Shown: piece after piece, positions 17,347 to 47,685 of the stretch | Layout: every line of letters starts with the position of its first letter | Numbering within the stretch: position 1 is the first letter of the stretch | Source of the DNA: a virus | IMG/VR virus record: IMGVR_UViG_3300030061_000336 | Location: 1 to 47,685 of that record | Reading direction: 5' to 3' (one strand) | Length of the DNA: 47,685 nucleotides | Position numbers and translations under genes: made by a program | The notes under the pieces: generated by a model | Told to the model about the DNA's origin: nothing | The model's database searches: none | What the model saw: the letters and a program-made list of their open reading frames with translations, nothing else

Positions 17347-17349
17347 GTT

Positions 17350-17703: not shown

Positions 17704-17731
17704 ATATAGTGAATTAGTAAAATATAAAGTT

Positions 17732-18109: not shown

Positions 18110-18136
18110 ACAAAAATGCAAATATAAATTTTAACA

Positions 18137-18778: not shown

Positions 18779-18786
18779 AATTAAGT

Positions 18787-29303: not shown

Positions 29304-29305
29304 TC

Positions 29306-29497: not shown

Positions 29498-29499
29498 CA

Positions 29500-29841: not shown

Positions 29842-29860
29842 TTAAATTTAAAATTATAGA

Positions 29861-29884
29861 GGGGGTTTCGTACCCCCTTTTTTT
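29861..29884 (+). terminator. Terminator abutting the arm-B helicase start
   Basis: GGGGGT / ACCCCC stem with TTCGT loop, then seven T running into ATG 29885. Conserved in position with 705-728, though stem-end bases changed. Confidence 0.85.
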
Positions 29885-30793: not shown

Positions 30794-31277
30794 GAAATTA
30801 GCTACAAAGCATAAAGACTGGGTTAGAATTGTGCAGAGTTTTGGGTGCAAAGGTTATTTGTGTGAAGATGTTGTGCAACAAGCGTATTTAAAAATTAATA
30901 CATTACTTAATAAAGGATTAAATATAAATTATGAAGATGATATCAATTATTTTTACATGTATCGTACATTAAAATCTTTATATTTTGATTTGTGTCGCAA
31001 AGAAGCGAAAATAACAAAAGTAAATTTAGAACATTTAGAAAGATATGTACAAGAAGAAGAAGTAAAAGAATATAAAGATATAGAGGGTAAGATGAGGGAA
31101 TTAGATACTTTGTTGGATAAAATGTATTGGTATGATGCTAAAGTTTTCACTATTTTAACAGAGGAGAAAATGTCAATAGCTGAATTATCAAAAAAAACAG
31201 GCATTAGTTATTATTCTTTATATAATACTTATAAGAACGTTAAAAACATAATAAAAGACAATATACAATGGGATTAG
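30780..31277 (+). CDS. Sigma-70-like transcription factor, arm B
   Basis: 165 residues, TTG start overlapping the ATPase by 14 nt exactly as in arm A. Region 2-like CEDVVQQAYLKIN and region 4-like MSIAELSKKTGISYYSLYNTYKNVKNIIK are conserved. The arm-A protein has one more residue early, this one has one more near TEEKMS. Confidence 0.65.
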   Translation: MTTLEKLATKHKDWVRIVQSFGCKGYLCEDVVQQAYLKINTLLNKGLNINYEDDINYFYMYRTLKSLYFDLCRKEAKITKVNLEHLERYVQEEEVKEYKDIEGKMRELDTLLDKMYWYDAKVFTILTEEKMSIAELSKKTGISYYSLYNTYKNVKNIIKDNIQWD

Positions 31278-31423
31278 GAACATTATTAGAAAAAATTATA
31301 AATGTAGTTACATTTGGTTACGGTAAAAGAATAGCGAGTTGGGTGGCAAAGAAATTAGGTTATGATGATTGCGGTTGTGATGATAGAAAGAATGACCTAG
31401 ATAAAAAAGTTAAACTATGGTAG
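31268..31423 (+). CDS. Small conserved CGCD protein, arm B
   Basis: 51 residues, MGLGTLLEKIINVVTFGYG..., ending DDCGCDDRKNDLDKKVKLW. Orthologue of 2623-2754 with a longer middle. Follows the sigma-like gene directly, since arm B lacks the 2123-2626 nuclease. Confidence 0.6.
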   Translation: MGLGTLLEKIINVVTFGYGKRIASWVAKKLGYDDCGCDDRKNDLDKKVKLW

Positions 31424-31632
31424 AGAAAGACAGAAAACTTTGGAAAGCGTTTTTAGAAAGAGAGAAACAACACGAAATAAATAGAGAAGAAATTGAACTT
31501 ATTGCTAGGTTACACGCTGAGCATTATAGACATAAGTACAATGAGCCATGCACTTGTAATGGGAGTATCTATAAAAAATGGATTGCAGAGATAAATAAAA
31601 TATATGAAATCACTAATAAAAAACAGAGATAG
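31417..31632 (+). CDS. Conserved early protein, arm B
   Basis: 71 residues, MVEKDRKLWKAFLEREKQHE; orthologue of 2748-2948, with a slightly longer C-terminus (ITNKKQR). Same YNEPCTC pair. The next nuclease start overlaps by 29 nt. Confidence 0.65.
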   Translation: MVEKDRKLWKAFLEREKQHEINREEIELIARLHAEHYRHKYNEPCTCNGSIYKKWIAEINKIYEITNKKQR

Positions 31633-31996
31633 AGTTAAACAAGTATTAGATTTTACAGGAGTACAGAACAAGAAAATGCACCCCTCTGACATTGATGCTG
31701 TATTAGAATTTAATAATGAAGCATTAATACTTATGGAAGTCAAATATAAATTTAACAAAATACCTGTTGGGCAGAAACTTCTTTTAGAACGCATAGCAGA
31801 TAGGTGGGGTGATAAAGCAATAGTTCTTAAAATTGAGCATAGTTTTTCAAATGATAAAATAAATATACCTTTAGATTTATGCGAGGTAACACAAATCTAT
31901 TATAATAGTAAATGGAGTTTAATTGATAGAACTAATGTTATTGAATATTTAAATAGGTTAGGGGAAAAGTGGAACATCAAAAAATGTAAATTTTAA
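31604..31996 (+). CDS. PD-(D/E)XK nuclease, arm B type
   Basis: 130 residues. PSDIDAVLEFNNEALILMEVKYKF gives D29/D31, E45 and K47, a clear PD-(D/E)XK core of VRR-NUC/resolvase style. It occupies the place of the 2935-3351 nuclease of arm A but is not obviously related, so the same job may have been taken by another family. Confidence 0.6.
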   Translation: MKSLIKNRDRVKQVLDFTGVQNKKMHPSDIDAVLEFNNEALILMEVKYKFNKIPVGQKLLLERIADRWGDKAIVLKIEHSFSNDKINIPLDLCEVTQIYYNSKWSLIDRTNVIEYLNRLGEKWNIKKCKF

Positions 31997-32014
31997 AAAA
32001 AATTAAAAAATTAT

Positions 32015-32044
32015 TTGTTTTATTAAAAAGTTTTAGTATATTTA
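32015..32044 (+). promoter_or_regulatory. Bacteroidota-type promoter, TTG-N19-TATATTTA
   Basis: TTG (32015-32017), 19 nt, TATATTTA (32037-32044), then ATG at 32069. Close to the TAnnTTTG consensus. Equivalent of 3486-3515 in arm A. Confidence 0.6.
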
Positions 32045-32068
32045 TACTATAATTAAAAACAAAACAAA

Positions 32069-32230
32069 ATGGAAACTAAACAAATAATCAACAAACTAGA
32101 GGAAAATATACTAGATAATAAAAATCTTAATGAAATATATTCTTTAGATTTTACTACATATGAATTAGTATTTGACATACAAAAGGTAAACGGAGTTAAC
32201 GAAGTAGTTATACAACAACTAGAAAAATAA
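32069..32230 (+). CDS. Small early protein, arm B
   Basis: 53 residues: METKQIINKLEENILDNKN, ...YELVFDIQKVNGVNEVVIQQLEK. First gene behind the promoter at 32015. Not recognised; no arm-A match. Confidence 0.45.
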   Translation: METKQIINKLEENILDNKNLNEIYSLDFTTYELVFDIQKVNGVNEVVIQQLEK

Positions 32231-32235
32231 ACAAT

Positions 32236-32319
32236 AAAGAGTTAGTGATTAACATTTATGCGGACACTATTAAACTGAAAGACGCGGGGCAGTTGCTAAA
32301 ATAATTCTAAAGGCTCTTT
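32236..32319 (+). promoter_or_regulatory. Possible structured leader in a 103-nt gap
   Basis: Non-coding gap with a GC-richer patch (GACGCGGGGCAGTTGC) unlike its surroundings. AAAGAG (32236-32241) can pair with CTCTTT (32314-32319), and TAGTG (32243-32247) with CACTA (32265-32269). May be a structured 5' leader or small RNA. It corresponds in position to the arm-A hairpin at 3826. Weak. Confidence 0.3.
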
Positions 32320-32333
32320 AAAATTTAAAACTT

Positions 32334-32549
32334 ATGAAAAAAACTTATCAAGATGTTATTGATTTCTACAATAATACTACAAATGAACAAAAATGTTACT
32401 TGTTATTATTAATGAGTAAAGATATAATGGTACCTGTACAAAAGGAAGACGGAGTACATAGTTTAGGGTTAGACCCTGAAGCACCTGTTTGTATGAATGG
32501 TACAGCATTTCAAATTAACACAGAAGATTGGAGATATTATGAAAAATAA
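32334..32549 (+). CDS. Hypothetical early protein, arm B
   Basis: 71 residues: MKKTYQDVIDFYNNTTNEQK, YLLLLMSKDIMVPVQ, GTAFQINTEDWRYYEK. No homologue in arm A. Overlaps the next gene by 11 nt. Function unknown. Confidence 0.5.
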   Translation: MKKTYQDVIDFYNNTTNEQKCYLLLLMSKDIMVPVQKEDGVHSLGLDPEAPVCMNGTAFQINTEDWRYYEK

Positions 32550-32823
32550 AATCGAAAATTTAAAAGACATGGAGATATGGACTGATTTACATTTTTTAAC
32601 ATCTATCGTACATAAACAAATTGAAAAAAAGAAAACAGATAATTTAGAGAAGATGTCAGATTCTTTAATTAGAATTGTATATTATTTTAAAGAATATTCT
32701 AATAACATACGATTATATAAAAAGGCATTATCAGAATATAAGTTGTCTAAAAATAGAGCAATAGAAAGGGCTAGGCGAGTTGAAAAACAATTAAATAAAA
32801 TAAAAAAACATGAAAAACTTTAA
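32539..32823 (+). CDS. Conserved coiled-coil early protein, arm B
   Basis: 94 residues from ATG 32539; a longer frame opens at 32497 but overlaps the gene before. Shares ENLKDMEIWTDLHFL, NLEKMSDSLIRIVYYFKEYSNNIRLYKKAL with 4003-4299 in arm A. Confidence 0.6.
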   Translation: MKNKIENLKDMEIWTDLHFLTSIVHKQIEKKKTDNLEKMSDSLIRIVYYFKEYSNNIRLYKKALSEYKLSKNRAIERARRVEKQLNKIKKHEKL

Positions 32824-33514
32824 AGTAGAAACAACAAAAGATTATAATAAATTTTTACATATTATAGGAAATAGAGAAATAAACAAATCTAATCTTAAAA
32901 GATTAAAAGAATCTATTAGAGAAATAGGGTTGCAAGTTCCTATATTAGTAAATGAAAACAGAGCAGTAGTGGACGGACAACATAGACTACAAGCATTAAG
33001 AGAATTGAATTTACCTGTAACTTATATTCAATCTCAAATAACAAGAGAGGAACATATTCCAAATTTACAAGTTAGTAAATTGTGGACTGCTTTAGATTTT
33101 GCAAAGAGAAATGCTGCACAAGGAGATAAAGAATGTATAAAAGCATTAAAAGTTGTTGATAATTGGCATGAATTAACAAATAAAAAATTTGCCAAAATAG
33201 TTATTTTAGAATTGTTAAATAAAGCCCAAAGTAACACACTAAAGCCGTATTTAAAAAATAAAAGCTATAAAGTTGATATAGACAATGCAATTAGAGTTTT
33301 TAACTGTCAAAATATATTAAATAAAAATAGGTCTGTAAGGTTTAACCCTTATACAGCAAAAAACATGAGAGCATTAAAAAAATTAAACAAAAATATGAAA
33401 GGTTTGAAATATAAAGTAATAGAAAAATTTAACAAACATTATTTAGATTCTTTTGCTTCTGGTCAGGAACAATATAATTATTTAAAAGATTTATATAAAA
33501 AATATGACAGATAG
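32810..33514 (+). CDS. ParB-like protein 1, arm B only
   Basis: 234 residues. N-terminal ParB-type domain (about 15-75): REINKSNLKRLKESIREIG, VPILVNENRAVVDGQHRLQALREL, with DGQHR (55-59) matching the CTP/DNA-contact GERR-like motif of ParB/Srx proteins. The rest is helical and basic. No ParA partner, so not a partition system; could be a DNA-binding or nuclease-type ParB. Absent from arm A. Confidence 0.6.
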   Translation: MKNFKVETTKDYNKFLHIIGNREINKSNLKRLKESIREIGLQVPILVNENRAVVDGQHRLQALRELNLPVTYIQSQITREEHIPNLQVSKLWTALDFAKRNAAQGDKECIKALKVVDNWHELTNKKFAKIVILELLNKAQSNTLKPYLKNKSYKVDIDNAIRVFNCQNILNKNRSVRFNPYTAKNMRALKKLNKNMKGLKYKVIEKFNKHYLDSFASGQEQYNYLKDLYKKYDR

Positions 33515-34280
33515 TATAGAATTATTAAATGGGGAGATTTTTTCAAAAGAAGAAATTTTAGTTCTAATGGAAGATGACGGATTCTATTATGATTATTTGG
33601 GCAAAGCAGCATTAAGCAGTAGTTCGATTAAGTTGTTAAATGATAGTCCAAAAAAATATCAATACGTTACAAAATATGGAAACCCCTCAACGCAAGGTTT
33701 GCGAGACGGTTGGTTGTTCCACACTGCCATATTAGAACCAGAGGTTTTTTCATCACAAATATTTGTAGATGTACAATCTAAAAATACAAAAGCATATAAG
33801 TTAGCTAAGGCTGAACATGGTAGAGTTTTTACTATAAAAGAAAAAAGAGATGCAGAGAGGTTAGCAGATGCCTTTTTAAGAAACGAACATGCCTTACAAA
33901 TGATAACAAATTGTGAGTTTGAAGTACCTGCTATTGGAACAATAGAGGGTTATCCTTTTCGTGGAAAAGCTGACGTATATGACAGGTATAGGATATGTGA
34001 TTTAAAAACAACAAATGACCTGAAAGCATTCCCATATTCAGCAAGGAAGTGGGGTTATGATATACAAGTTTACATTTATTGTCAGTTGTTTAACATGGAT
34101 TGGAAAGATTTTAAATTTGTTGCTGTCGATAAGGGTTCACTTGACATTGGTATTTATGATGTTTCAGAAGAATTTTATAATTTAGGAAAAGATAAAACCA
34201 TGAGGGCAATAGAAACTTACGAAGCATTTTTTATTAACGGTGCAGATTTAGATACATACTGCATAAAAGGTACATTATGA
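33504..34280 (+). CDS. RecE-like PD-(D/E)XK exonuclease, arm B
   Basis: 258 residues, orthologue of 4608-5381. GWLFHTAILEPEVF, FRGKADVYDRYRICDLKTT, YDIQVYIYCQLF and the C-terminal GADLDTYCIKGTL are kept. Overlaps ParB-like protein 1 by 11 nt and the following gene by 4 nt. Confidence 0.8.
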   Translation: MTDSIELLNGEIFSKEEILVLMEDDGFYYDYLGKAALSSSSIKLLNDSPKKYQYVTKYGNPSTQGLRDGWLFHTAILEPEVFSSQIFVDVQSKNTKAYKLAKAEHGRVFTIKEKRDAERLADAFLRNEHALQMITNCEFEVPAIGTIEGYPFRGKADVYDRYRICDLKTTNDLKAFPYSARKWGYDIQVYIYCQLFNMDWKDFKFVAVDKGSLDIGIYDVSEEFYNLGKDKTMRAIETYEAFFINGADLDTYCIKGTL

Positions 34281-34690
34281 AATCAAGAAAAGAATTTTTA
34301 GAATATATAAAACAAATAACAAACGTAGATATATACTCAAAATCAAGAGCAAGAGAGATAATTGAAGCTAGATGCTTGACTATATTTGTTTTAAAAAATC
34401 ATTTTAAGATGAGGTTTGTAGAAATTACAAGTTTATTTAACAAACATAATTTAAGGTATACAAACTCTAACATTTTAAATAGTTATAAAAAATTTATAGT
34501 TTATAAAAAGTTTAATGAACAATTAGCAACAAACTATGAGTTAGTATTAAATAGATTAGAAAACACAACAGAACTCAAAAGAGCAATGCTAATAGAAGAA
34601 ATTAAATATAGTACACCAAAAGAGTTAGATGCGTTTCAAAATATATATGATAGGAAGTTGCTTACAAGTGTAAACAAAATATTAAACTAA
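34277..34690 (+). CDS. Diverged DnaA-like protein, arm B
   Basis: 137 residues. Aligns with 5378-5818 by start overlap and pattern (IKQITNVDIYSKSRAREIIEARCL, then FVLKNHFKMRFVEITSLF). At the DNA-contact signature it reads YTNSNILNSYKKF rather than DHATALHSLKSFE, so specific DnaA-box recognition is probably lost or changed. Confidence 0.45.
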   Translation: MKSRKEFLEYIKQITNVDIYSKSRAREIIEARCLTIFVLKNHFKMRFVEITSLFNKHNLRYTNSNILNSYKKFIVYKKFNEQLATNYELVLNRLENTTELKRAMLIEEIKYSTPKELDAFQNIYDRKLLTSVNKILN

Positions 34691-34691
34691 A

Positions 34692-35018
34692 ATGGAAAAA
34701 GATAAAGATAAAAGAAAAGAAATGCCACTATATAGGGGATTAATAAAATACTTTCCTGATGCACTATGCGAAGTAGCAAGAGTAAGCTACATAGGAAGTA
34801 AACAACACCACCCAGAAGAAGATATACATTGGGATAGAAATAAAAGTCAAGATGATTTAGATGCACTTATGCGACACCTAATGGAAAATGGTATGCACGA
34901 TATAGACGGAGTAAGACACAGTGCAAAAATAGCATGGAGAGCATTAGCACACCTACAAAAAGAAATAGAGGGTGATAAATACCACCCCACAGACCACATA
35001 ATAGCAGGTACAGAATGA
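34692..35018 (+). CDS. DUF5664-like protein, arm B
   Basis: 108 residues, MEKDKDKRKEMPLYRGLIKY; nearly identical to 5775-6137 through RHLMENG and HSAKIAWRALAHLQKE, shorter at the C-terminus. Start is 1 nt after the previous stop, whereas arm A overlaps by 44 nt. Confidence 0.65.
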   Translation: MEKDKDKRKEMPLYRGLIKYFPDALCEVARVSYIGSKQHHPEEDIHWDRNKSQDDLDALMRHLMENGMHDIDGVRHSAKIAWRALAHLQKEIEGDKYHPTDHIIAGTE

Positions 35019-35137
35019 AGCCAAAGAAATATACAATAATACAAAGAATAAAAAGATTAGAGAATATAGTAAGTCAAATGTATATGAGTGTTGAGGTAAT
35101 CAAGAAACAAATAGAGAAAGAAAATAAAAAAGATTAA
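35015..35137 (+). CDS. Small conserved helical protein, arm B
   Basis: 40 residues, orthologue of 6829-6954: MKPKKYTIIQRIKRLENIV, YMSVEVIKK. ATG overlaps the DUF5664 stop. Confidence 0.6.
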   Translation: MKPKKYTIIQRIKRLENIVSQMYMSVEVIKKQIEKENKKD

Positions 35138-35151
35138 CGTTATATAAATAT
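35138..35151 (+). promoter_or_regulatory. CGTTATA-type motif before ParB-glycosyltransferase cassette
   Basis: CGTTATATAAATAT fills the entire 14-nt gap before ATG 35152. Two bases longer than the usual spacing. It begins right after a stop, as at 7361. Confidence 0.5.
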
Positions 35152-35778
35152 ATGAAAGCTAACAAAATAAAAGTAAGTAAGTTAAAACCTAATGAAAATA
35201 ATCCTAGAGTTATTAAAGGATATAAATTTGAAAAGTTAGTTAAGAGCATACAAGAGTTTCCTGAAATGTTAAAGTTGAGACCAATAGTTGTAGATGAAAA
35301 CAATATTATTCTAGGTGGCAACATGAGGTACAAAGCAGCAGTACAGGCAGGGTTAAAAGAAGTTTACGCAATACAAGCAGATGATTTAACAGAAAAACAA
35401 AAACAAGAATTTATAATAAAAGATAATGTTGGTTTTGGTGAGTGGGATTGGGATAGTTTAGCGAATTCATGGGAAGTGGAAAGGTTAGAAGATTGGGGGG
35501 TTGATGTTCCGATATTTGATAAAATAGATTCTATGGAAGAAGAAGAAGAATTGGAAATACCACAATCTGTACAATTAGAGCCACCGAAAGAATATGTTTT
35601 GATAATGGCTGAGCCGAATAGTGTAGAATGGGAACAATTAAAAGAAATGTTAAAATTAAAAATGGTCAGAAGAGGTGGATATAAAAAAGGAAGTGCTTTT
35701 GATTCAGTAAGTTTAGAAAGGGTTTTATGGTTTGATGATTTTAAAAAAAGAATAGATGTTAATAGCAGTACCAAGTAA
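35152..35778 (+). CDS. ParB-like protein 2, modification-cassette type
   Basis: 208 residues. ParB N-terminal domain (about 5-95): KLKPNENNPRVI, KLRPIVVDENNIILGGNMRYKAAVQAG (GGNMR 55-59), VYAIQADDLTEKQKQEFII, then WDWDSLANSWEVERLEDWGV. ParB proteins of this DNA-modification type have been noted next to base-hypermodification enzymes. The last 23 nt overlap a glycosyltransferase-like gene. Absent from arm A. Confidence 0.65.
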   Translation: MKANKIKVSKLKPNENNPRVIKGYKFEKLVKSIQEFPEMLKLRPIVVDENNIILGGNMRYKAAVQAGLKEVYAIQADDLTEKQKQEFIIKDNVGFGEWDWDSLANSWEVERLEDWGVDVPIFDKIDSMEEEEELEIPQSVQLEPPKEYVLIMAEPNSVEWEQLKEMLKLKMVRRGGYKKGSAFDSVSLERVLWFDDFKKRIDVNSSTK

Positions 35779-36475
35779 AGGCAGAGCGGGTTTAACATCT
35801 ACAAACAAGATATTGCCTAACATGTGTACTTTCTTTATACCAGAAAGCGAATATCATCAATATAAAGGTTTGGTTAAAAATATAGTTTGTGTACCAAAAG
35901 AAGTCAGAGGAATAACGCCAACAAGAAATTGGATATTAAAAAATACTGATGAAAAATGGGTTGTAATGTTAGATGATGATGCAAAACATGTTGGATATAA
36001 TTTTTTGGATAAAAGAAAAACTAAAAAAATTGAAATAAGAGATGAGGGGTTTTGGGTTGAAGAATTTTTGAAATATTTTGACTTAACAGAGCAACTAGGC
36101 TATAAAATATGGGGAACAAGAACAGAAAGCAGCCCAAGAGGTACATACCCATATAAACCAATACTCACTAGAACTTATGTAACAGCTTCGTTAATGGGTA
36201 TTATAAATGACGGAGAATATTATTTTGATGAAAACTTTATTGTAAAAGAAGATTATGAAATATGTTTAAGACATATAAAAGATAAAGGGGGTATATTAGG
36301 TATAAGATATTTACACTGGGAAAATGACCATTGGATTAAAAGTGGTGGTTGTAAAGATTATAGAACAATTGGTATTGAAAAGAAAGCAATAAAAGATTTA
36401 ATAAAATTATACCCTAATATGATTTCCCAAGTAAAGAGAAAAGCTAATGAATTTACAATTAAATTAAATTTATAA
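35756..36475 (+). CDS. TET-associated-type glycosyltransferase (TAGT-like)
   Basis: 239 residues. MLIAVPSKGRAG start, RGITPTRNWIL, then VVMLDDDAKHVGY with the DDD nucleotide-sugar site (73-75), and KEDYEICLRHI, fit a GT-A fold of the TET/JBP-associated glycosyltransferase type that adds sugars to modified bases. No TET/JBP or dUTP/dCTP-modifying enzyme is seen in the window, so the acceptor base, if DNA, would come from elsewhere. Surface glycan transfer is an alternative. Arm B only. Confidence 0.55.
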   Translation: MLIAVPSKGRAGLTSTNKILPNMCTFFIPESEYHQYKGLVKNIVCVPKEVRGITPTRNWILKNTDEKWVVMLDDDAKHVGYNFLDKRKTKKIEIRDEGFWVEEFLKYFDLTEQLGYKIWGTRTESSPRGTYPYKPILTRTYVTASLMGIINDGEYYFDENFIVKEDYEICLRHIKDKGGILGIRYLHWENDHWIKSGGCKDYRTIGIEKKAIKDLIKLYPNMISQVKRKANEFTIKLNL

Positions 36476-36831
36476 TGAACAAAACTGAACACCATAAAAA
36501 AGCATTATTAGAAGCGTTAGAAAAATCATTAGGAGTTGTTACAACAGCTTGTAAAAGAGCAGAGGTTGGAAGAACAACTTATTATGATTGGTATAATAAT
36601 GATGAGGATTTTAGGAAAAAGGTAGATGATTTACAGAATGTTGCTTTAGATTTTGCAGAAAGTCAATTACATAAACAAATATCAGAAAATTCAACGCCTG
36701 CAACTATATTCTATTTAAAAACTAAAGGTAAGAAAAGAGGTTATGTAGAAAGACAAGAAATAACAGGGGCAGAGGGAGTGCCAAACGCTTTTCAAATTGA
36801 AATCATTGACAAAACCGAAGATACAGACTAA
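36475..36831 (+). CDS. Terminase small subunit, HTH type
   Basis: 118 residues: KALLEALEKSLGVVTTACK, AEVGRTTYYDWYNNDEDFRK (helix-turn-helix), ALDFAESQLHKQISENSTPATIFYLKTKGKKRGYVER. The phBC6A51-like small terminase pattern. Different from the KREGAGRK protein in arm A. Start overlaps the glycosyltransferase-like stop by 1 nt. Confidence 0.65.
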   Translation: MNKTEHHKKALLEALEKSLGVVTTACKRAEVGRTTYYDWYNNDEDFRKKVDDLQNVALDFAESQLHKQISENSTPATIFYLKTKGKKRGYVERQEITGAEGVPNAFQIEIIDKTEDTD

Positions 36832-37969
36832 CAAGGTATATAAACACCTTTTAAAAAGCGATAAGAAAATAATTATTGAACAGGGTGGTACTCGTTCTGG
36901 TAAAACGTATAATATATTGTTATGGATAATCTTTCATTATTGTACGCAAAATAAAAACAAAACAGTTACTATTTGTCGGAAAACATTTCCTAGTTTAAGG
37001 GCTTCAGTGATGAGGGATTTTTTAACTATCCTAAAACAATACAAAATATATAGTGAAGAACTGCATAATAAATCAAATTCAGAATATCGTTTATTTAATA
37101 ATTTGGTTGAGTTTATTAGTTTAGACCAACCACAAAAAGTAAGAGGACGTAAAAGAGATATATTGTTTATAAATGAAGCTAATGAATTATATTTTGAAGA
37201 TTGGCAGCAATTAATATTTAGAACGAATGGGAGAATAATAATAGATTATAACCCAAGTGATGAGTACCATTGGATATATGATAAAGTTATAACTCGTGAT
37301 GATTCTGATTTCTATATAACAACATACATGGATAATCCCTTTTTAGAAGAAACTATAAGGGAAGAAATTGAAATGTTAAAAGAAACAGACGACCAGTATT
37401 GGCAAATATATGGTTTGGGTTTAAAGGGAATCAGTAGAGCAACAATATTTAAGTATCATGAATGTAGTCAAATACCAGATGATGCAAAGTTTATAGCGTA
37501 TGGTGCAGATGCAGGATATACAAATGACCCAAGCACATTAGTAAGCGTTTATCAAAAAGAACATAATCTATATATTAAAGAACATTTATATCAAACAATG
37601 ATGACAACATTAGATATACATAATAAGTTTAGAGAAACAGGTATAACTAAACAACAAATATATTTTGATAGTGCAGAACCAAGATTGATTGATGAATTAA
37701 GAAGAATGGGTTGGAATATAAGACCAAGTTTAAAAGGTAAAGACAGTGTAAATGCTGGAATAGACTTATTAAAAAGGTATAAAATAAATATAACTAGTTC
37801 TAGCAATAATGCGATTCAAGAATTTAGAAACTATAAATGGAGGGAAGATAAGACAGGTAAACTTACCAATATACCAGAAGATAAGAACAACCATATTATA
37901 GATGCAGTAAGATATGCAACATACAGTATATTAAGCAGACCTAATTTTGGTAGATACACAATACGTTAG
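36797..37969 (+). CDS. terL: Terminase large subunit, arm B
   Basis: 390 residues, TTG start overlapping the small terminase by 35 nt (a second TTG lies nine bases later). GGTRSGKT Walker A (30-37), DILFINE Walker B, GADAGYTNDPS and IYFDSAEP nuclease sites. Same length as arm A but diverged more than neighbouring tail genes. Confidence 0.92.
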   Translation: MKSLTKPKIQTNKVYKHLLKSDKKIIIEQGGTRSGKTYNILLWIIFHYCTQNKNKTVTICRKTFPSLRASVMRDFLTILKQYKIYSEELHNKSNSEYRLFNNLVEFISLDQPQKVRGRKRDILFINEANELYFEDWQQLIFRTNGRIIIDYNPSDEYHWIYDKVITRDDSDFYITTYMDNPFLEETIREEIEMLKETDDQYWQIYGLGLKGISRATIFKYHECSQIPDDAKFIAYGADAGYTNDPSTLVSVYQKEHNLYIKEHLYQTMMTTLDIHNKFRETGITKQQIYFDSAEPRLIDELRRMGWNIRPSLKGKDSVNAGIDLLKRYKINITSSSNNAIQEFRNYKWREDKTGKLTNIPEDKNNHIIDAVRYATYSILSRPNFGRYTIR

Positions 37970-37991
37970 TTTCTAAAACTTTTATTTTTTA

Positions 37992-38003
37992 CGTTATATA
38001 AGT
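37992..38003 (+). promoter_or_regulatory. CGTTATANTAAT-type motif before tail module, arm B
   Basis: CGTTATATAAGT, abutting ATG 38004 in a 34-nt gap. Matches 8829-8840 in arm A. Confidence 0.6.
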
Positions 38004-38660
38004 ATGAGAAAAGAAGTAATCGTACCTGATTCCTTAGGGGAAATAACTTTAGGACAATATCAGAAATATTTAAAAATCCAAGCGGATAACGAAGATGAAA
38101 AGTTTTTAGCTGTTAAAATGGTTGAAATCTTTTGCGGTATTAGGGGTGATTTGGTTATGAAAATGAAGGCTACTAGCATTGGAGATATCACAAGTATATT
38201 AGCTAGTATGTTTGAACAGAAACCTGATTTACTTAAAGAGTTTGAAATGAATGGTATAACTTATGGATTTATTCCGCATTTAGATGATATGTCTTTTGGT
38301 GAATATGTTGATTTGGATACTTATATAGGCGATACACAAAATTTACATAAAGCTATGGGGGTTTTATATAGACCCATTATACAAAGATATTCCAATAAAT
38401 ATCTAATTGAAGAATATAAAGGTGAAGAATCCGATAAAATGAAGAATATGCCAATGGACGCTGTTTTAGGTTCCATGCTTTTTTTTTATCATTTAGGAAT
38501 GGACTTGTCGAAAATTATGCTGAATTATTTGGAGAACAATCAGGAGGAGAATCAGAATTTAGTTCAACATCTGTCTTTGGGAAAAAATGGGGGTGGTATC
38601 AATCGCTTTTCTCACTCGCTAAATCAGATATTACAAGAATTAAAAATATCACTAAACTAA
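38004..38660 (+). CDS. Tail assembly chaperone, arm B zero frame
   Basis: 218 residues, orthologue of 8841-9488. MRKEVIVPDSLGEITLGQYQ; YHLGMDLSKIMLNYLE after the T-run. Start set by the motif and homology. Confidence 0.7.
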   Translation: MRKEVIVPDSLGEITLGQYQKYLKIQADNEDEKFLAVKMVEIFCGIRGDLVMKMKATSIGDITSILASMFEQKPDLLKEFEMNGITYGFIPHLDDMSFGEYVDLDTYIGDTQNLHKAMGVLYRPIIQRYSNKYLIEEYKGEESDKMKNMPMDAVLGSMLFFYHLGMDLSKIMLNYLENNQEENQNLVQHLSLGKNGGGINRFSHSLNQILQELKISLN

Positions 38661-38749
38661 ATGTACACGAATGTTTATATGCGTTGAGTTATATGAAAGA
38701 CAAAGCAGAGTTAGAAGCTAATCAATTAAAAAGTAAAATGAAAAAATGA
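38004..38749 (+). CDS. Tail assembly chaperone, arm B -1 frameshift fusion
   Basis: Shift at T TTT TTT (38480-38486, within nine T) gives about 248 residues: LSFRNGLVENYAELFG, VFGKKWGWYQSLFSL, then SDITRIKNITKLNVHECLYALSYMKDKAELE. The stop overlaps ATG 38746. Amino-acid similarity with the arm-A shifted frame is strong although the bases differ. Confidence 0.75.
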
Positions 38750-39219
38750 GCAATCAGGGAGTAAGGGGTTATTATCAAGTTACAGATATTTTAAAAACTA
38801 ATCTGTTAAATGATGAAAATGTAAACACTGTAACAACAGGAGATATAACAGACATTGATTTATCAAAACAAACTATATTTCCGTTGAGTCATATAATAAT
38901 AAATTCAGTGGAAATACAAGAACAGGTTTTAAACTTTAATCTTACTGTAATGTGCATGGATATAGTAGATGTAAGCAAAGATGAAACAACTGATATATTT
39001 AGAGGTAATAATAATGAACAAGATATATTAAACACACAATTAGCAGTAGCAAATAAGTTAGTAGGTTTAATAAGTAAAGGCACTTTATACCAAGACAAAT
39101 ATCAAATAGAGGGAACAGCGACATGTGAGTTTTTTTATGAAAGGTTTGAGAATCAGTTAGCAGGAGTAGCTTGTACGTTTAGTTTATTAATTGCAAATGA
39201 TATAAATGTATGCAGTTAG
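38746..39219 (+). CDS. Putative tail terminator, arm B
   Basis: 157 residues, same length as 9574-10047; MSNQGVRGYYQVTD, KQTIFPLSHIIIN, CMDIVDVSKDETTDIFRG, ENQLAGVACTF. Role by position only. Confidence 0.45.
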   Translation: MSNQGVRGYYQVTDILKTNLLNDENVNTVTTGDITDIDLSKQTIFPLSHIIINSVEIQEQVLNFNLTVMCMDIVDVSKDETTDIFRGNNNEQDILNTQLAVANKLVGLISKGTLYQDKYQIEGTATCEFFYERFENQLAGVACTFSLLIANDINVCS

Positions 39220-39794
39220 ATGAGGTAAATAAAATATTACATAAGTTTGGAAAGTATGTTGTACAACAAGCTAGAACAAATCTAAGTAAATCAGGTAAAA
39301 CTAAGAAGTCGAGAAACCTATATGATAGTATAGATTATAAGGTTAATCAATTTTCAGATAGTATTGACTTGTTATTTAGCATGGAAGATTACGGTGCATT
39401 TCAAGATTTAGGAGTTAAAGGAAAAGACCCAAGTAAAGTATCTCCAAATGCAAAGATAACAGGACAACAGGCTCCAAACTCTCCATATAAATTCGGCAGT
39501 GGTAGTAGAAAAGGAACGTTTAAACAATTTGCTGCAAGAATGTCGGTATTTGCTAAAAAAAGAAACATTAGGTTTAGACAAGGTAAAACAGGAAGATTTG
39601 CTAAAGGTGGATATGATTCAATGGGTTATGTGATTGCAAAAAATATTTTTAACAGAGGTATAAAACCTAGCTTCTTTTTTACTAAACCATTTCAGGCGGC
39701 ATTTAAATATATACCTGATGAAGTAGTAGAAGCGTTTGTTTTTGACATTGAACAAGATGAAAGGTTTTTTCCTGAAAACATGAATAAAGATTAA
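39210..39794 (+). CDS. HK97 gp10-like neck/tail completion protein, arm B
   Basis: 194 residues: KFGKYVVQQARTNLSKSGK, SRNLYDSIDYKV, MEDYGAFQDLGVKGKDPSK, RGIKPSFFFTKPF. Orthologue of 10038-10574, with a different middle. Confidence 0.5.
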   Translation: MQLDEVNKILHKFGKYVVQQARTNLSKSGKTKKSRNLYDSIDYKVNQFSDSIDLLFSMEDYGAFQDLGVKGKDPSKVSPNAKITGQQAPNSPYKFGSGSRKGTFKQFAARMSVFAKKRNIRFRQGKTGRFAKGGYDSMGYVIAKNIFNRGIKPSFFFTKPFQAAFKYIPDEVVEAFVFDIEQDERFFPENMNKD

Positions 39795-39796
39795 TT

Positions 39797-40756
39797 ATGG
39801 CACATATATTTTTAAGAAGTCCAAAATATTTAACAATAACAACTGGCTCGCATTTGTCGGCTAAATTAGAACTGACGATTGACGGTGCGTTAAGATATAC
39901 AATAATTAAAAATGCAACTTCTAACAGAACAGTGTTTGAATTGTCTAGTTTAGCAAAAGATTATTACGACCCTGATTATGGTGGGTCAACAGGAAGTACG
40001 TTTGATACAGTTGCAATATCTGCTACTTGGTATGCTTATGATGCTGTTGATGCAGGGGGAAGTCAATTAGCAACTGCTACTGTAACTCATACAGGGTATT
40101 ATGGTTATTCTTTTTTTACACAGGGTGTTAATGGTAATGATATAGATGCTAGCGATTTTGAGTTTACTAATACAGGAGATACGAGAGTTATTTATTTACC
40201 AGATAATACTGCTAGTTTTGCTTGGGATATGAATAGTGGTACAGCAACAAGAACAGCAATTAGTACCTCTGCAACAAGTGCTTCTGCTGCATCAGGTAAT
40301 TATACTTGGAATATAACAAGAATATGCAGTGCAAAATACTCACCTATTCAAATGAGGTTTATCAATAAGAATGGCGCACCACAAGATTTTTATTTCTTTT
40401 TAAAGTCAGTAGAAAGCATGAACGCTATGAAAGATACGTTTAAGAGAAATATATTTAATTACTCTACTTCTGCTTATGATGAAGAGGACCACCAAACAAC
40501 AGTATTTAATAAAAATGGGAAAAGAGTATTTACCTTAAACACAGATTATTTGATTGAAGCTTATAATCGTGTAATGGAAGATATTATGTTGAGTGAGTAT
40601 TGTTGGATTTATTATAATTCAGGAGAGGGTCTACAATGGCACCCTGTAATAGTAAACACCCAATCATTAGTTAAAAAAACTTCAGTAAATGACAGGTTAA
40701 TACAATACACATTAGAAGTGGAAGATGCTAACGACATTATCAATAATATAGTTTAA
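39797..40756 (+). CDS. Tail/baseplate structural protein, arm B
   Basis: 319 residues; MAHIFLRSPKYLTITTGS, YLPDNTASFAWDMNSGTAT, ITRICSAKYSPIQMRFINKN, then DRLIQYTLEVEDAND. Orthologue of 10567-11499 with a small insertion (YDPDYGGSTGS). Confidence 0.5.
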   Translation: MAHIFLRSPKYLTITTGSHLSAKLELTIDGALRYTIIKNATSNRTVFELSSLAKDYYDPDYGGSTGSTFDTVAISATWYAYDAVDAGGSQLATATVTHTGYYGYSFFTQGVNGNDIDASDFEFTNTGDTRVIYLPDNTASFAWDMNSGTATRTAISTSATSASAASGNYTWNITRICSAKYSPIQMRFINKNGAPQDFYFFLKSVESMNAMKDTFKRNIFNYSTSAYDEEDHQTTVFNKNGKRVFTLNTDYLIEAYNRVMEDIMLSEYCWIYYNSGEGLQWHPVIVNTQSLVKKTSVNDRLIQYTLEVEDANDIINNIV

Positions 40757-42930
40757 TGAAGCGTGAAGTACAATTATATATATCAGATACTAGGGTTGAT
40801 TTATTCAAAGATGAAACAATAAGTATCACAGATTCAATTCAGAATATATCTGATATTAGCAAAGTATTTACTCCATTTTCTCAACGATTCTCTTTACCTG
40901 CTTCAGCAACAAATAATAAGTTATTTAAACATTATTATAATTTCAATATCTCTGGGGGTTTTGATGCAAGATTTAGAGTAACAGCGAGAATTGAAATAAA
41001 CCATGTACCGTTTAAAACAGGTCAGATAAGATTAGACGGAGTAAGCATGAAAAATAATCAGCCCCATACTTATAAGGTTGTATTTTTTGGAGAGCCAAAT
41101 AGTTTAGTTGATATTTTTGGAGATGAGGACTTAAACTCTTTAAATTCATTATCAACTTATGACATGGATTTAGCAGGTGGTACTGATTTTCTTGCTGCTT
41201 TTAAAACAGGTTTACAAAGTACAGGGGTTAATGCTACAAGCACAGCAAATAGGAATGTAGTTGTACCTTTAATACTGTTAAAAACATTTTATACTTATGG
41301 CAGTGGTAGTAACGATTTAAATACGGTTAACTTCCCTGATTTACAAGTAGATTTAAAACCTGCTATAAAATTAAAAAGAGTTATTGAAGCAATACAAACG
41401 CAGTATGATATTTCATTTAATATGGTTGATGAACATATTGATGAGTTTGTAATTGCAGAGGACGGAAGTATTGTAACAGATGAGAGCGGTAATCCAGTTG
41501 TTCAAGAGGGTGCGACAAGCGATATCAAAACATTCTTTGGAAGTGATATGTTTGATGAACTGTATTTATGGTTACATAGAGAATCAACGCCTATTAGTGA
41601 GCCAGATGCAGCAACAGCTAATTTTGGAGTAGATACTGTAACAAAAAGTAAAAAACTTACCTTTTCAGATTTTACCTACGCTTCAGGGGGTGGAGATGTT
41701 TTATCTTCCAACAAACTAACTGTAAATAAAGGCGAATCTTTTGGTTTAAGGTTAGTATTAGACCCAAGCGTAACAAACAATACAGGGGAGATAATAATAA
41801 AAGATAAAACAACAAACGAACTATTATTTTATAGAGAGAATGTGCCTTTCAATAGTGGGTCAAACTTATCTGCACCATTAAAAACTTTAACAAGTGGAAC
41901 ATTAGATTCAAGAACCTATGATATAGAGTTCAGAATAAATTGTCAGGTGACTGTTAATTTTGGTGCGTTGAATCCTGCGTTAGTTATTGATAAAACAGTA
42001 GGCTCAGCAAGTCCAACAGCGCATAATTATAGTGCAGGTGCTTTTGCTTTAGCAGGAGATTTATTTATACAGGATTACATACCAAAGATGAAAGTTATAG
42101 ATTTTCTATCTGGTTTGTTTAAGATGTTTAATTTAGTTGCTTATAAAAAACTTGGTAACGATACAATCTATGTAGAAACCTTTGATGATTTTATGACAAA
42201 GGGAGTAACTAGAGATATAACAAAATACATAGATATTAAACAGGGTACGATTGATAGACCTGTACCATATAATCAAGTAAATTTCAAATATTCATCACCT
42301 GTTACTCAAACTAGTTTAAGATTTGTAAACCAATTCAGTCAAATATTTGGAGATTTAAATTATTCTGCACCTGAAAAATATGACGGACAAGCGTTTAATT
42401 TAGAAGTACCATTTGAAAGAACTGTATTAATAAATTTACTAGACAACTCTGGTAACATAACAAATAATGTAGTTGGTTGGTGGGTAAAAGATGACGGTTC
42501 AACTGCGTTAGGTAAACCATTTATATTTTTTAACAGAGTAGCCGACCAAAGCGGTGGAAGTGGAAAAACAGTTACAAGTTTAAGTATAACAGCATACAAT
42601 GCAGCGTCGAGTGTATCTAGTGATGAAAACCATTCTTTAAACTTCGGTGCTGAATATGATGAGTTTAATGGTGGAGTAAACACTAACAGTTTATTTAAAA
42701 GGTTTTATGAAAACTATATAATTCAAACATTTAATCAAAATAGTAGAATCATAAAAGTATCAGCACAGTTGCCAATTAGTTTTATGTTAAACTATTCAGT
42801 CAATGATATTATATTAATTAATGGTCAAGAGTATTATATAAATAGTATTAAGATGAATTTAGCGACAGGCAAGTCAGAATTAGAATTAATAGTAAAAACG
42901 GTAACTTATACACATAGCGTATTAACATAA
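40756..42930 (+). CDS. Large tail-tip / baseplate hub-like protein, arm B
   Basis: 724 residues. N-terminal and C-terminal regions match 11500-13599; extra bases occur around VDEHIDEFVIAEDGSIVTDE (about 225-245) and in the middle beta-rich domain. Its stop overlaps the next ATG. Confidence 0.5.
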   Translation: MKREVQLYISDTRVDLFKDETISITDSIQNISDISKVFTPFSQRFSLPASATNNKLFKHYYNFNISGGFDARFRVTARIEINHVPFKTGQIRLDGVSMKNNQPHTYKVVFFGEPNSLVDIFGDEDLNSLNSLSTYDMDLAGGTDFLAAFKTGLQSTGVNATSTANRNVVVPLILLKTFYTYGSGSNDLNTVNFPDLQVDLKPAIKLKRVIEAIQTQYDISFNMVDEHIDEFVIAEDGSIVTDESGNPVVQEGATSDIKTFFGSDMFDELYLWLHRESTPISEPDAATANFGVDTVTKSKKLTFSDFTYASGGGDVLSSNKLTVNKGESFGLRLVLDPSVTNNTGEIIIKDKTTNELLFYRENVPFNSGSNLSAPLKTLTSGTLDSRTYDIEFRINCQVTVNFGALNPALVIDKTVGSASPTAHNYSAGAFALAGDLFIQDYIPKMKVIDFLSGLFKMFNLVAYKKLGNDTIYVETFDDFMTKGVTRDITKYIDIKQGTIDRPVPYNQVNFKYSSPVTQTSLRFVNQFSQIFGDLNYSAPEKYDGQAFNLEVPFERTVLINLLDNSGNITNNVVGWWVKDDGSTALGKPFIFFNRVADQSGGSGKTVTSLSITAYNAASSVSSDENHSLNFGAEYDEFNGGVNTNSLFKRFYENYIIQTFNQNSRIIKVSAQLPISFMLNYSVNDIILINGQEYYINSIKMNLATGKSELELIVKTVTYTHSVLT

Positions 42931-43079
42931 TGATAAAAGATATATTACAATTATTGCCTTTTGCGAAAGGTGAAACAGAAAACATAAGAATCGCACAGGG
43001 AAGATATAAACTCCCTGAAACTCTTAAAGAGGGTTATAAACAATTAAAACAAGAGATATGGCAAAAAAGGTCTATATAG
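42930..43079 (+). CDS. Small conserved tail-region protein, arm B
   Basis: 49 residues, MIKDILQLLPFAKGETENIR, GRYKLPETLKEGYKQ, IWQKRSI. Orthologue of 13599-13739. Overlaps the tape measure start by 22 nt. Confidence 0.55.
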   Translation: MIKDILQLLPFAKGETENIRIAQGRYKLPETLKEGYKQLKQEIWQKRSI

Positions 43080-45046
43080 ATTTTGAGTTACGCTACAAAG
43101 AAGCAGTAGCTAACTTAAATGAAATGCAAAAGGAATATACTAAACTTGAAACAAAGGTTGAAAAGTTTGATGATGCTGTTCAGGAAAGTTCTGAAAGCAC
43201 TAAAGAAATGGGCGGAGTTTTAGATTCTGTTACAGGTGGTGCAGTAACTAAATTTAAAGGACTTACAAGTACAGTTGGTAATGTTGTTAAAGGTTTTAAA
43301 AGTTTAAGGATTGCAATTATAGCAACTGGGATTGGTGCTTTGGCTCTTGCTATTGGTGCTGTTATAGCTGCCTTTACAAGAAGTGAAGAGGGGCAAGATA
43401 GGTTTACTAAAATTTTAAATGTTATTGGTGCAGTGATTGGGGTTGTCATGGATAGATTAGCAGATTTTGGAATGATGCTTATTGATGTATTTTCTCAGCC
43501 GGGCAAGATATGGCAGGGGTTTGTCGATACATTGAAAAAAGGTTATGAAATGATTAAACTTCAAGTCATTGATAGATTTAGAGCAAACTTTACTTTATTA
43601 GTTGGTAGCATACAAAAAGGGATTCTAAAAATGCGTATTGCTTGGAATAAATTTACAGGCGATTCTAAAGAAGCAAAAAAACTTACAAACGAGTTGGATA
43701 AAGTAAATGCTAAAATGGACGAGGCTCGTAAAACTATTTCAAGAGCTAATGAGAGTTTGTCTAGTGAATTTGACAGAATAAGTAGATTGGTTGCACAAGG
43801 AAGAGATGATTTGAAAGATTATTTAGCAGATTTAAACCGAGAAATTGAAGAAGAAGGCAGAATAATGGCAAGGGCTTCTGATATTGCTGCTGCTGCTAGA
43901 AAACAAGAAAGAAAATTACAAATTGAAAGAGCAAAAGCAGATAGGGAAATTGCAGCATTTAGAGAACTAGCAGCAGATAAAGAAAATAAAAGTGTAGAAG
44001 AAAGAATTGAAGCTATAAAACGAGCAGGTGCTATTGAAGAAGAAATGACTAATAAAGAAGTTTCATTAGCAGCTAAAAGACTGGAAGTCCAAAGGATTAA
44101 GAATAGAATGGGTCATTCAACCAGAGAAGATAAAGACGAGGAAGCAAGATTAGAGGCACAGTTAATAGAACTAGAAACTAGAAGATTAAAATTACAAAAA
44201 GCATTAACAGCAGAGATAACAACAGCGTTAAGAGAAGCTAAAGCAGAAAGAAATGCAGAAGCAGCAGAGTTAGCAGCAGAATTTATATACCTGCCTGGAG
44301 TTGGTTTCGTCAGTAGAGAAGCGTTTAACAAGATGAAAGCTGACGGAGAATCAATTGAGAAAATACAAGAAGAATTTAAAAAGAAAAAAGAAGATGAAGC
44401 TGCTGAAACTGAGGTACAAAAAGTAGAATTAGAAAGAAATAGAAAATTACAGGAACTAGACGATTTAAATGCAACAGAAGAACAAAAGGCAAAAATAAGG
44501 GAATTTTATAGTGATAAATTAAAAAAAGCTGAATTCGCAGATGCTGAAGCGAGAAAACAACAAAAAGAATTAGAAGCAAAGGAAGAAGAAGAAAGAACGC
44601 AAGAATTGTTTGGTAACCTAATAAGTATTGTTGGTGCGAATAGTAGATTTGGAAAAGGATTAGCAGCAGCTAATGCTATAAGAAGTACTTATGCAGGTGC
44701 TTCAAAAGCGTTAGAACAAGGGGGTATGTTTGGTTTTGTTTCGGCAGCAGCGATTATTGCTTCTGGTTTGAGAAATGTAAAAACAATATTAGCTACTAAA
44801 GACCCTAAAACTCCGAGTATTGCTGGTGCTAGTGGTGGTGGAAGTGAGCCTGCAATATCTATACCTGCAACTCCAGCAGCATCTCAACCTCCACAATTTA
44901 ATACAGTTGGTGCAAGTGGGATAAATCAGTTGGCTGATGTTCTTGGTGGTGGGCAACAACCTGTAAGGGCTTTTGTTGTAAGTGGAGATGTAACGACAGC
45001 ACAACAGTTAGATAGAAACATTGTGAGTAGTGCTTCGATAGGATAA
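43058..45046 (+). CDS. Tail tape measure protein, arm B
   Basis: 662 residues, 61 longer than in arm A, so the predicted tail is slightly longer. Hydrophobic region (about 90-125: LRIAIIATGIGALALAIGAV), long Glu/Lys coiled coil (about 215-520), Gly-rich C-terminus matching arm A (FGFVSAAAIIASGLRNVKTI; QPPQFNTVGASGINQLAD). The middle of the protein is different from arm A. Confidence 0.8.
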   Translation: MAKKVYIDFELRYKEAVANLNEMQKEYTKLETKVEKFDDAVQESSESTKEMGGVLDSVTGGAVTKFKGLTSTVGNVVKGFKSLRIAIIATGIGALALAIGAVIAAFTRSEEGQDRFTKILNVIGAVIGVVMDRLADFGMMLIDVFSQPGKIWQGFVDTLKKGYEMIKLQVIDRFRANFTLLVGSIQKGILKMRIAWNKFTGDSKEAKKLTNELDKVNAKMDEARKTISRANESLSSEFDRISRLVAQGRDDLKDYLADLNREIEEEGRIMARASDIAAAARKQERKLQIERAKADREIAAFRELAADKENKSVEERIEAIKRAGAIEEEMTNKEVSLAAKRLEVQRIKNRMGHSTREDKDEEARLEAQLIELETRRLKLQKALTAEITTALREAKAERNAEAAELAAEFIYLPGVGFVSREAFNKMKADGESIEKIQEEFKKKKEDEAAETEVQKVELERNRKLQELDDLNATEEQKAKIREFYSDKLKKAEFADAEARKQQKELEAKEEEERTQELFGNLISIVGANSRFGKGLAAANAIRSTYAGASKALEQGGMFGFVSAAAIIASGLRNVKTILATKDPKTPSIAGASGGGSEPAISIPATPAASQPPQFNTVGASGINQLADVLGGGQQPVRAFVVSGDVTTAQQLDRNIVSSASIG

Positions 45047-45065
45047 ACAAAAAATTAATTTAATA

Positions 45066-45077
45066 CGTTATAATAAT
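45066..45077 (+). promoter_or_regulatory. CGTTATANTAAT motif before protease gene, arm B
   Basis: CGTTATAATAAT before ATG 45078; the entire 31-nt gap equals that at 15533-15563. Confidence 0.65.
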
Positions 45078-46679
45078 ATGAGAATAGTTGAATTAATATT
45101 AGGTGATGATGAGTTAACAGGTATTGAAGCAATTTCAGTAGTTGAAAACCCAGCAATAGAAGAAGATTTTATAGCATTAAAAAGCGAGGAGATAAAACTT
45201 GCAGAGGTAGATAAAGAAAAAAAAATCTTAATGGGTGCTTTACTTGTTCCTAATAAACCTATTTACAGAAAAAAAGGAGATGAAGAATATTACATATATT
45301 TCTCAAAGGAAACAGTAGAAAAAGCATCACAACTTTATTTAATGAATGGCAATCAATCAAAAGCCACATTAGAACATCAACACACGATTAACGGACTAAC
45401 ACTAGTAGAATCTTGGATTGTAGAAGATGAGGTACATGATAAATCAAGAAAATATGGTTTAAATGTACCTGTGGGTACTTGGGTAGGTTCAGTAAAAGTG
45501 AATAATGATGAAATATGGAACAAGTTTGTTAAAACAGGTAAGATTAAAGGTTTTAGTATAGAGGGTTACTTCGCAGACAGAATGGAACGACCTAAAGAAC
45601 CTGTAAACGACTTTGCAGACATAGAAGAAGCTGAAGCAAGTGAAATGCTATCTTATATAAGGTCTATAATCAAAGAGGACAAGCGTTTAAAGGGCGGTAA
45701 GAGACGAGAACTAGAATCATATAGTGATTACCCTGATGCCTTAAAAAACAACGCTAAAAAAGGTATAGAGTTAAACAAAAAAGTAAACAACAAATGTGCA
45801 ACACAGGTTGGAAAAGTCAGAGCAAGTCAATTAGCACAAGGCAAGCCTATCTCAAAAGAAACAATTAAAAGAATGTACTCGTATTTAAGCAGAGCGCAAG
45901 AATATTATGATGAGGGAGATACAAAAGCTTGCGGCACTATATCTTATTTATTATGGGGTGGTAAAGCAGGTTTAAGGTGGTCAGAATCTAAACTAAAAGA
46001 ATTAGGCGAAATAGAATTAGCGTCTATGGTTATTAATGATGACTTTGCAATTATAGATGATAGATTAGCATACTCAACACAAGAGAAAGCTGAAGAAATG
46101 GCAAAGAACATAGGGTGCAAAGGTTTTCACACTCACGACTTTGAGGGTGCAACATGGTATATGCCTTGTGAGTTCCATGTTAAAGATGATTTTAAAAAAT
46201 ATAAATGCCCAGAGGGTTATGTGAAAGACTATCAAAAACACAAGTGCGTCAAAAAAGAAAAATACGCTGAAGTAGGCAAAAGAGGTGGTATAAAAAAATC
46301 TCCTAAAGCACCAAAGTCAGATACGCCTAACCCAAAGCCTAAAGGCAAGGGTACAGCAAAAGGAGATGCCTCAACAACAAGAGGTGCTAAAGTATCTAAA
46401 AAAGATGAAGCGACTTTAAAAAAAAAGTCAGATGAGTTTAACGAGAGATACAAAAAGAAATTAGGGTATGGTGTAAATGTAGGAATGTTAAAGGCAGTAT
46501 TCCAAAGAGGTTTAGGTGCATTTAATGTTTCACATAGTCCAAGAGTAAAAAGTGCTTCACAATGGAGTTTTGCTAGGGTAAATGCTTTTTTATATTTAGT
46601 AAAAAATGGCAGACCTCAAAACAAGAAGTACACAGGGGATTTTGACTTGTTACCAAAAGGACACCCTAAAAAACCATAA
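45078..46679 (+). CDS. Prohead protease with extra C-terminal domain, arm B
   Basis: 533 residues. Same protease (EHQH, GFSIEGYF) and SDYPDALKNNAKKGIELN domains as arm A. From about 380 it differs: a CPEGYVKDYQKHKCVKK segment, a basic Lys/Pro/Gly linker, then a compact domain (KKKLGYGVNVGMLKAVFQRGLGAF, SQWSFARVNAFLYLVKNGRP, DFDLLPKGHPKKP) of DUF5824 type. The extension could bind DNA or packaging proteins before cleavage. Confidence 0.8.
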   Translation: MRIVELILGDDELTGIEAISVVENPAIEEDFIALKSEEIKLAEVDKEKKILMGALLVPNKPIYRKKGDEEYYIYFSKETVEKASQLYLMNGNQSKATLEHQHTINGLTLVESWIVEDEVHDKSRKYGLNVPVGTWVGSVKVNNDEIWNKFVKTGKIKGFSIEGYFADRMERPKEPVNDFADIEEAEASEMLSYIRSIIKEDKRLKGGKRRELESYSDYPDALKNNAKKGIELNKKVNNKCATQVGKVRASQLAQGKPISKETIKRMYSYLSRAQEYYDEGDTKACGTISYLLWGGKAGLRWSESKLKELGEIELASMVINDDFAIIDDRLAYSTQEKAEEMAKNIGCKGFHTHDFEGATWYMPCEFHVKDDFKKYKCPEGYVKDYQKHKCVKKEKYAEVGKRGGIKKSPKAPKSDTPNPKPKGKGTAKGDASTTRGAKVSKKDEATLKKKSDEFNERYKKKLGYGVNVGMLKAVFQRGLGAFNVSHSPRVKSASQWSFARVNAFLYLVKNGRPQNKKYTGDFDLLPKGHPKKP

Positions 46680-46798
46680 TGGCTAGAAAGGTTGTCAGAA
46701 CATATATAAAACCAAAACGCAAATCACACCCTCATAGCAAAAATGCTAGTGTAGGACAAACAGGTTATAAAAAAAAATATAGAGGTCAAGGAAGATGA
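46679..46798 (+). CDS. Small basic conserved head-module protein, arm B
   Basis: 39 residues; MARKVVRTYIKPKRKSHPHS, KNASVGQTGYKKKYRGQGR. Orthologue of 16757-16876; next ATG overlaps its stop. Confidence 0.6.
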   Translation: MARKVVRTYIKPKRKSHPHSKNASVGQTGYKKKYRGQGR

Positions 46799-46929
46799 AA
46801 AAATTTGAAACACCAAGCAGAACTAGTCCAAGAGGTGGTCGAAGAGGTTGTTTGTGTAAAGACAAAGATACTTATTCGGTTAAATGTTGTGAGGGGAAAA
46901 TTATAAATCAAGGAATCGGCAAGATATAA
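46795..46929 (+). CDS. Small Cys-rich conserved head-module protein, arm B
   Basis: 44 residues; FETPSRTSPRGGRRG, CLCKDKDTYSVKCC, INQGIGKI. Orthologue of 17215-17346; follows the basic gene directly, since the three-paralog family is missing. Confidence 0.6.
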   Translation: MKKFETPSRTSPRGGRRGCLCKDKDTYSVKCCEGKIINQGIGKI

Positions 46930-46952
46930 AAATGCAAATATAAATTTAAACA

Positions 46953-46964
46953 CGTTATAGTAAT
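46953..46964 (+). promoter_or_regulatory. CGTTATANTAAT motif before scaffold gene, arm B
   Basis: CGTTATAGTAAT before ATG 46965, same as 18137-18148. Confidence 0.65.
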
Positions 46965-47600
46965 ATGAAATCAACAGAAATTTTAGACAAAATCAAAACT
47001 TTCTTGGGAGAAGAAAAAATTGAGAATCAAGTTGAAGAACAAGTTGAAAAAACTCAATTAGAAGAAACTACCGAGCAAGTCCAAGTAGAGTTAGCACAAG
47101 CTAAACTTGAAAATGGAACAGTTTTAGAAGCAGAAGCTTTTGAAGCAGGAAACGAAATCTTTATTGTATCTGATGATGAAAGAGTAGCAGTACCAGTCGG
47201 CGAATATCAAATGGAAGACGGTAAAATGCTAATTATTTCAGAAGAAGGTATAATCGGTGAAATCAAAGCAGAGAAAACTGAAGAACCAACAGTTGAAGAA
47301 GAAGATAAAACTGATGCTTCAGAAGAATTAGCTGAAGAAGAGGAAGAAGACATGTATGTTTCTAAAGAAGAATTTGAATCTGCCGTTGAGGAAATCAAAG
47401 GTATGATTAAAGAGTTAAAGGACAAAAAAGAAGAAATGGCACAAGTTGAAGAGCAAGTAAAACAAGAGTTAAGCGAAACTCCTGCGACAGAGCCAATCTC
47501 TCACAATCCTGAAGCTAAACAAGAATTTAAAGTGCGTTTTGGAAAAAATAAAAAGGAAAGTGCTTTAGATAGAGTAATGAAAAAATTAACCAATAATTAA
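46965..47600 (+). CDS. Putative capsid scaffold protein, arm B
   Basis: 211 residues, orthologue of 18149-18778: same LENGTVLEAEAFEAGNEIFI and VPVGEYQMEDGKMLIISEEG, acidic linker, coiled coil and basic RVMKKLTNN end. Diverged chiefly in the Glu-rich parts. Confidence 0.65.
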   Translation: MKSTEILDKIKTFLGEEKIENQVEEQVEKTQLEETTEQVQVELAQAKLENGTVLEAEAFEAGNEIFIVSDDERVAVPVGEYQMEDGKMLIISEEGIIGEIKAEKTEEPTVEEEDKTDASEELAEEEEEDMYVSKEEFESAVEEIKGMIKELKDKKEEMAQVEEQVKQELSETPATEPISHNPEAKQEFKVRFGKNKKESALDRVMKKLTNN

Positions 47601-47608
47601 AATTAAGA

Positions 47609-47685
47609 AAAATGCCAAATCCAACAATTACAGCAAGTAGTTATGCAGGTGAATTTGCAGGTAAATATATCGCTGCGAGTTTATT
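47609..47685 (+). repeat. 77-nt exact terminal repeat
   Basis: Identical to 18787-18863 base for base, ending exactly at the window end. Upstream sequence at once diverges. See findings. Confidence 0.95.
47612..47685 (+). CDS. Major capsid protein, 3'-truncated by window end
   Basis: First 24 complete codons (MPNPTITASSYAGEFAGKYI and four more) identical to 18790 onward at nucleotide level. If the lasso reading is right this is not a second gene but the same capsid gene reached a second time. Confidence 0.75.
   Translation, partial: MPNPTITASSYAGEFAGKYIAASL

Follow-up and report, generated by a model that had tools for sequence, protein, structure and literature searches.

The question raised by this viral record is why its last 77 bases repeat, without a single mismatch, a stretch of its own interior. 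The window, i.e., the whole stretch of DNA that was analysed, is the entire IMG/VR record of 47,685 bp, classed as linear; thus, the window end is the contig end, and the possibility named in the initial annotation, that the window might be an internal slice of a longer contig, was ruled out. Self-comparison confirmed what that annotation had noticed, namely that positions 47609–47685 equal 18787–18863 exactly over 77 bp (both copies on the plus strand) and that the preceding bases differ (A47608 versus T18786). This pair is the longest exact repeat within the window, the runner-up being one of 67 bp at 5824/34741, and no further exact end repeats of at least 30 bp were found at either terminus of the window. 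The explanation that we favor, with a probability of roughly 0.88, is that the record is a chimeric “lasso” contig, in which an 18.8-kb fragment of one phage (X) has been mis-joined to the complete circular genome of a related phage (Y) of 28,822 bp.

The record consists of two homologous arms and one late region. Positions 1–18786 are collinear with 28967–47608; the blocks on the main diagonal of the self-BLAST show 72–91% nucleotide identity at an offset of about 28.8 kb, and along most of both arms each gene has one counterpart in the other arm. Arm X (1–18786, plus strand), a partial genome of phage X that is near-identical to the independent contig G001, carries replication, terminase, tail-type, and protease-type genes. 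Arm Y (28967–47608, start approximate, plus strand) is its homologue, and 34854–47685 also occurs in contig G037 at about 99% identity. Between the arms, the terminase large subunits are 39% identical, the protease-type genes 91% across their aligned part, and the replication-type helicases 91%. The late region, extending from 18787 to about 28600 with portal and holin genes, is single; the portal protein gene is located at 20794–22596 (plus strand; PHROG 33693, E 2e-114). A gene at the capsid position occurs once in each of the 36 related contigs, none of which has two full protease-type genes, and near-complete relatives are about 28–33 kb long. One capsid-position gene per relative, taken together with this size, means that the record holds about 1.65 genomes.

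Some genes distinguish the arms. A DNA methyltransferase-like gene is present in arm X (6134–6835; PHROG 23224, E 1e-58), and a glucosyltransferase-like gene lies at a roughly corresponding place in arm Y (35756–36475; PHROG 842, E 1.5e-19), so DNA modification may differ between these relatives. Arm X also contains three small adjacent genes at 16873–18109 (16873, 17350, and 17732), mutually about 34% identical, which are without counterparts at the corresponding place in arm Y. The protease-type gene encodes 397 amino acids in X (15564–16757) and 533 in Y (45078–46679), and its open frames are short or long among relatives.

Since the arms are homologous throughout and the 47 bp located 5' of the A47608/T18786 mismatch match between them as well, the 77-bp match is not due to chance. 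The point needing explanation is that the match opens at a mismatch and the record stops exactly 77 bases on. The genes flanking the two copies (18149–18778 and 46965–47600) share 84% protein identity, in line with the earlier description of them as visibly diverged. An overlap that opens at a mismatch and has the length of a standard k is the pattern of a de Bruijn branch. The standing of 77 as such a value, asserted in the initial annotation, is borne out by the CheckV paper, in which terminal repeats of, for example, 55, 77, or 99 bp are numerous and are ascribed to assembler k (PMC8116208).

How phage X continues past the repeat can be read from G001 (IMGVR_UViG_3300030109_000558, 29,441 bp), an independent IMG/VR contig from another metagenome, which stands in for X. 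In a base-level alignment, G001 differs from the window up to position 18938 by 16 substitutions (14 of them before position 8800) and one N-filled gap; from 18939 onward it leaves the window sequence for a late region of its own. What X and the window have exactly in common is therefore a 152-bp segment (18787–18938, plus strand), which spans the start of the capsid-position gene. A coarse BLAST had placed the X-to-Y switch at 20396, a position replaced by 18938 after this alignment. Over 1–18938 the window is thus near-identical to one genome, and the remainder is clearly diverged from it: the capsid-position gene shows 92% nucleotide identity between G001 and the window, and the alignable remainder of the late region about 80–86%, with finer blocks ranging more widely. 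Further exact X/Y islands are short (113, 95, and 124 bp at 19111, 19854, and 20592), and X, taken as G001, is about 82% identical to Y over about 68% of their length. The 152-bp segment is a conserved gene start, matched at 149 of 152 bases in the relative G002 and at 146–147 in several others, which is why its identity between relatives is not very remarkable; a recent exchange between X and Y at this segment is possible.

Both genomes, X (arm X continued as G001) and circular Y, were combined in a toy de Bruijn graph with k=77, a model with a stand-in for X rather than the real graph. It reproduced a branch vertex at 18787, entered by two paths and left by one, and a repeat edge of 152 bp; the X edge and the Y edge both terminate in the exact 77-mer of the window end. 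The internal copy of the repeat (18787–18863) corresponds to this k=77 vertex, and the terminal copy (47609–47685) to the k-length end overlap of an assembler. The earlier claim that contigs ending at a graph branch keep k bases of overlap agrees with these edges and with COBRA simulations, in which metaSPAdes and MEGAHIT breaks caused by repeats retain maxK end sequences (PMC10914622). The three shared islands give bubbles of near-equal length in the toy graph; a bubble-collapsing assembler would get past them and then follow Y. That a G001-like X would add to the graph three bubbles of 95–124 bp, which the assembler must have passed, is counted against the chimera.

The record would then have arisen as follows. 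The source community would have contained two related tailed phages, X and Y, identical for 152 bp across the point where the capsid-position gene begins. A de Bruijn assembler, presumably working at k=77 as judged from the repeat length, would have run arm X (1–18786) into the common segment, gone once round circular Y (18787–47608), and halted on re-entry into the common segment, leaving exactly 77 bases. The end of arm Y would accordingly continue into 18787 onward, and the X-to-Y join would be present in no genome. With about two-thirds of one phage joined to a circular relative at a short common stretch, the 77-base repeat would be a footprint of the assembler and not a biological feature; a mis-join of such kind is a known metagenome artefact.

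The putative complete circular genome of phage Y (18787–47608, plus strand) has ends that overlap by k, the 77-bp self-overlap, and its 28,822 bp fits the size of near-complete relatives. G037 (IMGVR_UViG_3300030110_001381, 12,752 bp), which comes from another metagenome, matches 34854–47685 in two pieces, at 99.98% and 98.9%. It ends in the same segment (L190, end at base 1), which indicates that a second assembly halted at the same place. It stops 79 bases into the 152-bp segment, not 77, and this is counted against the chimera; a competing strain with a mismatch two bases later would account for the difference.

Relatives of these phages show end repeats of their own. The two ends of G030 (32,282 bp) are identical over 99 bp, so that this contig looks closed. 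In G014 the lasso is mirrored: the 77 bases at its start (L093, 1–77) recur exactly at 27325–27401 (L094), followed by 651 more bases, and the two continuations after the repeat differ by an insertion. It is the only such case among the 14 other fully read relatives. At the start of the window (1–57), the first 51–57 bases are exactly conserved in three other relatives; with only this much exact sequence in common, the window start is no more than a possible second k=77 branch.

The initial annotation had two phage arms meeting in one shared late segment, with a lasso at a graph branch. The exact repeat and the toy graph uphold the k=77 branch, the lasso, and the two related phages, but the shared segment of about 10 kb does not stand, as G001 is identical only to 18938; for G001, a whole late segment common to both phages was rejected. 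It is unlikely that the late module from 18787 to about 28600 is common in full to two phages in the sample, or to a true population of X/Y recombinants, so that both arms would enter the same 10 kb. The contig as written does run arm X into the present late region, and the group is mosaic, with identity between relatives varying strongly along the genome; nevertheless, the sole independent X contig has its own diverged late region, and the Y-specific sequence directly after the 152-bp segment was found in no other viral contig. Furthermore, the end repeat needs a common node of only at least 77 bp, which the 152-bp segment supplies. Judged on G001 from another sample, the late region is not near-identical in both phages. 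Because of this different origin, the phage X of the sample behind the window may have another sequence after 18938, and we see a small chance that it is a genuine recombinant carrying Y's late module from the capsid-position gene start onward, with a real X-to-Y join. In that event, phages that occur together would naturally exchange sequence at this gene start.

That the record represents one real genome, or a tandem prophage, of at least 47.7 kb with a duplicated, diverged 19-kb arm is very improbable. The contig does contain two complete, homologous arms that point the same way, but two capsid-position genes or two full protease-type genes were seen in 0 of 36 related contigs, arms X and Y are each found alone in other assemblies (G001 and G037), and the exact 77-bp length of the end match would have to be coincidental. 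A tandem prophage was also rejected on the ground that no relative of the capsid-position protein was found in bacterial or archaeal genome contigs. Least credible, and only marginally worth considering, is natural terminal redundancy or a packaging-related phage repeat. Direct terminal repeats are possible in phages, and the exact repeat sits at the contig end; however, one copy lies 18.8 kb inside the contig and spans a gene start, the length equals a standard k, and the end repeats of relatives (99 bp in G030, 77 bp elsewhere in the genome in G014) are conserved neither in position nor in length.

The gene at which X and Y meet (18790–19716, plus strand, 308 amino acids) belongs to PHROG 11320 (function unknown) and lies between the protease-type gene and the portal gene. 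Its product is probably the major capsid protein, by position only: structure prediction without an alignment was uninformative (pLDDT 31.6), and a PDB sequence search returned no credible match. Phages X and Y are tailed phages of a group present in many IMG/VR contigs; a megablast search of GenBank with the late region returned no near-identical phage. The only GenBank phage records with a related portal (37% identity over 97%) are those of the Nonlabens (Persicivirga) phages P12024L and P12024S (Inhavirus) from seawater, which are only distant relatives; the late region gave no DNA-level match to them. This portal kinship, a sequence resemblance, suggests Bacteroidota hosts.

If the record is the chimeric lasso proposed here, it makes a phage of about 29 kb appear 47.7 kb long and about 19 kb of gene content appear twice, and a genome that is probably complete escapes notice, since end-repeat tests detect no terminal repeat. 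Such lassos can be found simply by asking whether the first or last k bases of a contig recur inside the same contig; among records now listed as linear fragments, this could bring complete genomes to light, and it could expose false duplications of genes.

Several known artefact types are related to this one. Like the k-mer-length direct terminal repeats of circular contigs described with CheckV (PMC8116208), it shows an exact repeat of a k value (77) closing a circular genome; unlike them, it has one copy internal, since the other phage's arm precedes the circle, and the record therefore passes as linear in end-repeat tests. Concatenated-genome contigs in IMG/VR (CheckV, PMC8116208) likewise exceed one genome unit through repeated genome content, whereas here the repeated part is a diverged relative and not the same genome, so that the k-mer frequency stays near 1. 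As in the maxK end overlaps exploited by COBRA (PMC10914622), the break lies at a branch point and maxK bases of overlap are retained, but in this record the contig end overlaps with a stretch inside the same contig; according to its paper, COBRA can neither fix nor detect chimeras made during assembly (PMC10914622). Finally, chimeric contigs that arise in viromes when similar viruses co-exist (PMC5610896) also merge two genomes through a highly similar region, while the chimera described here includes an apparent whole closed genome.
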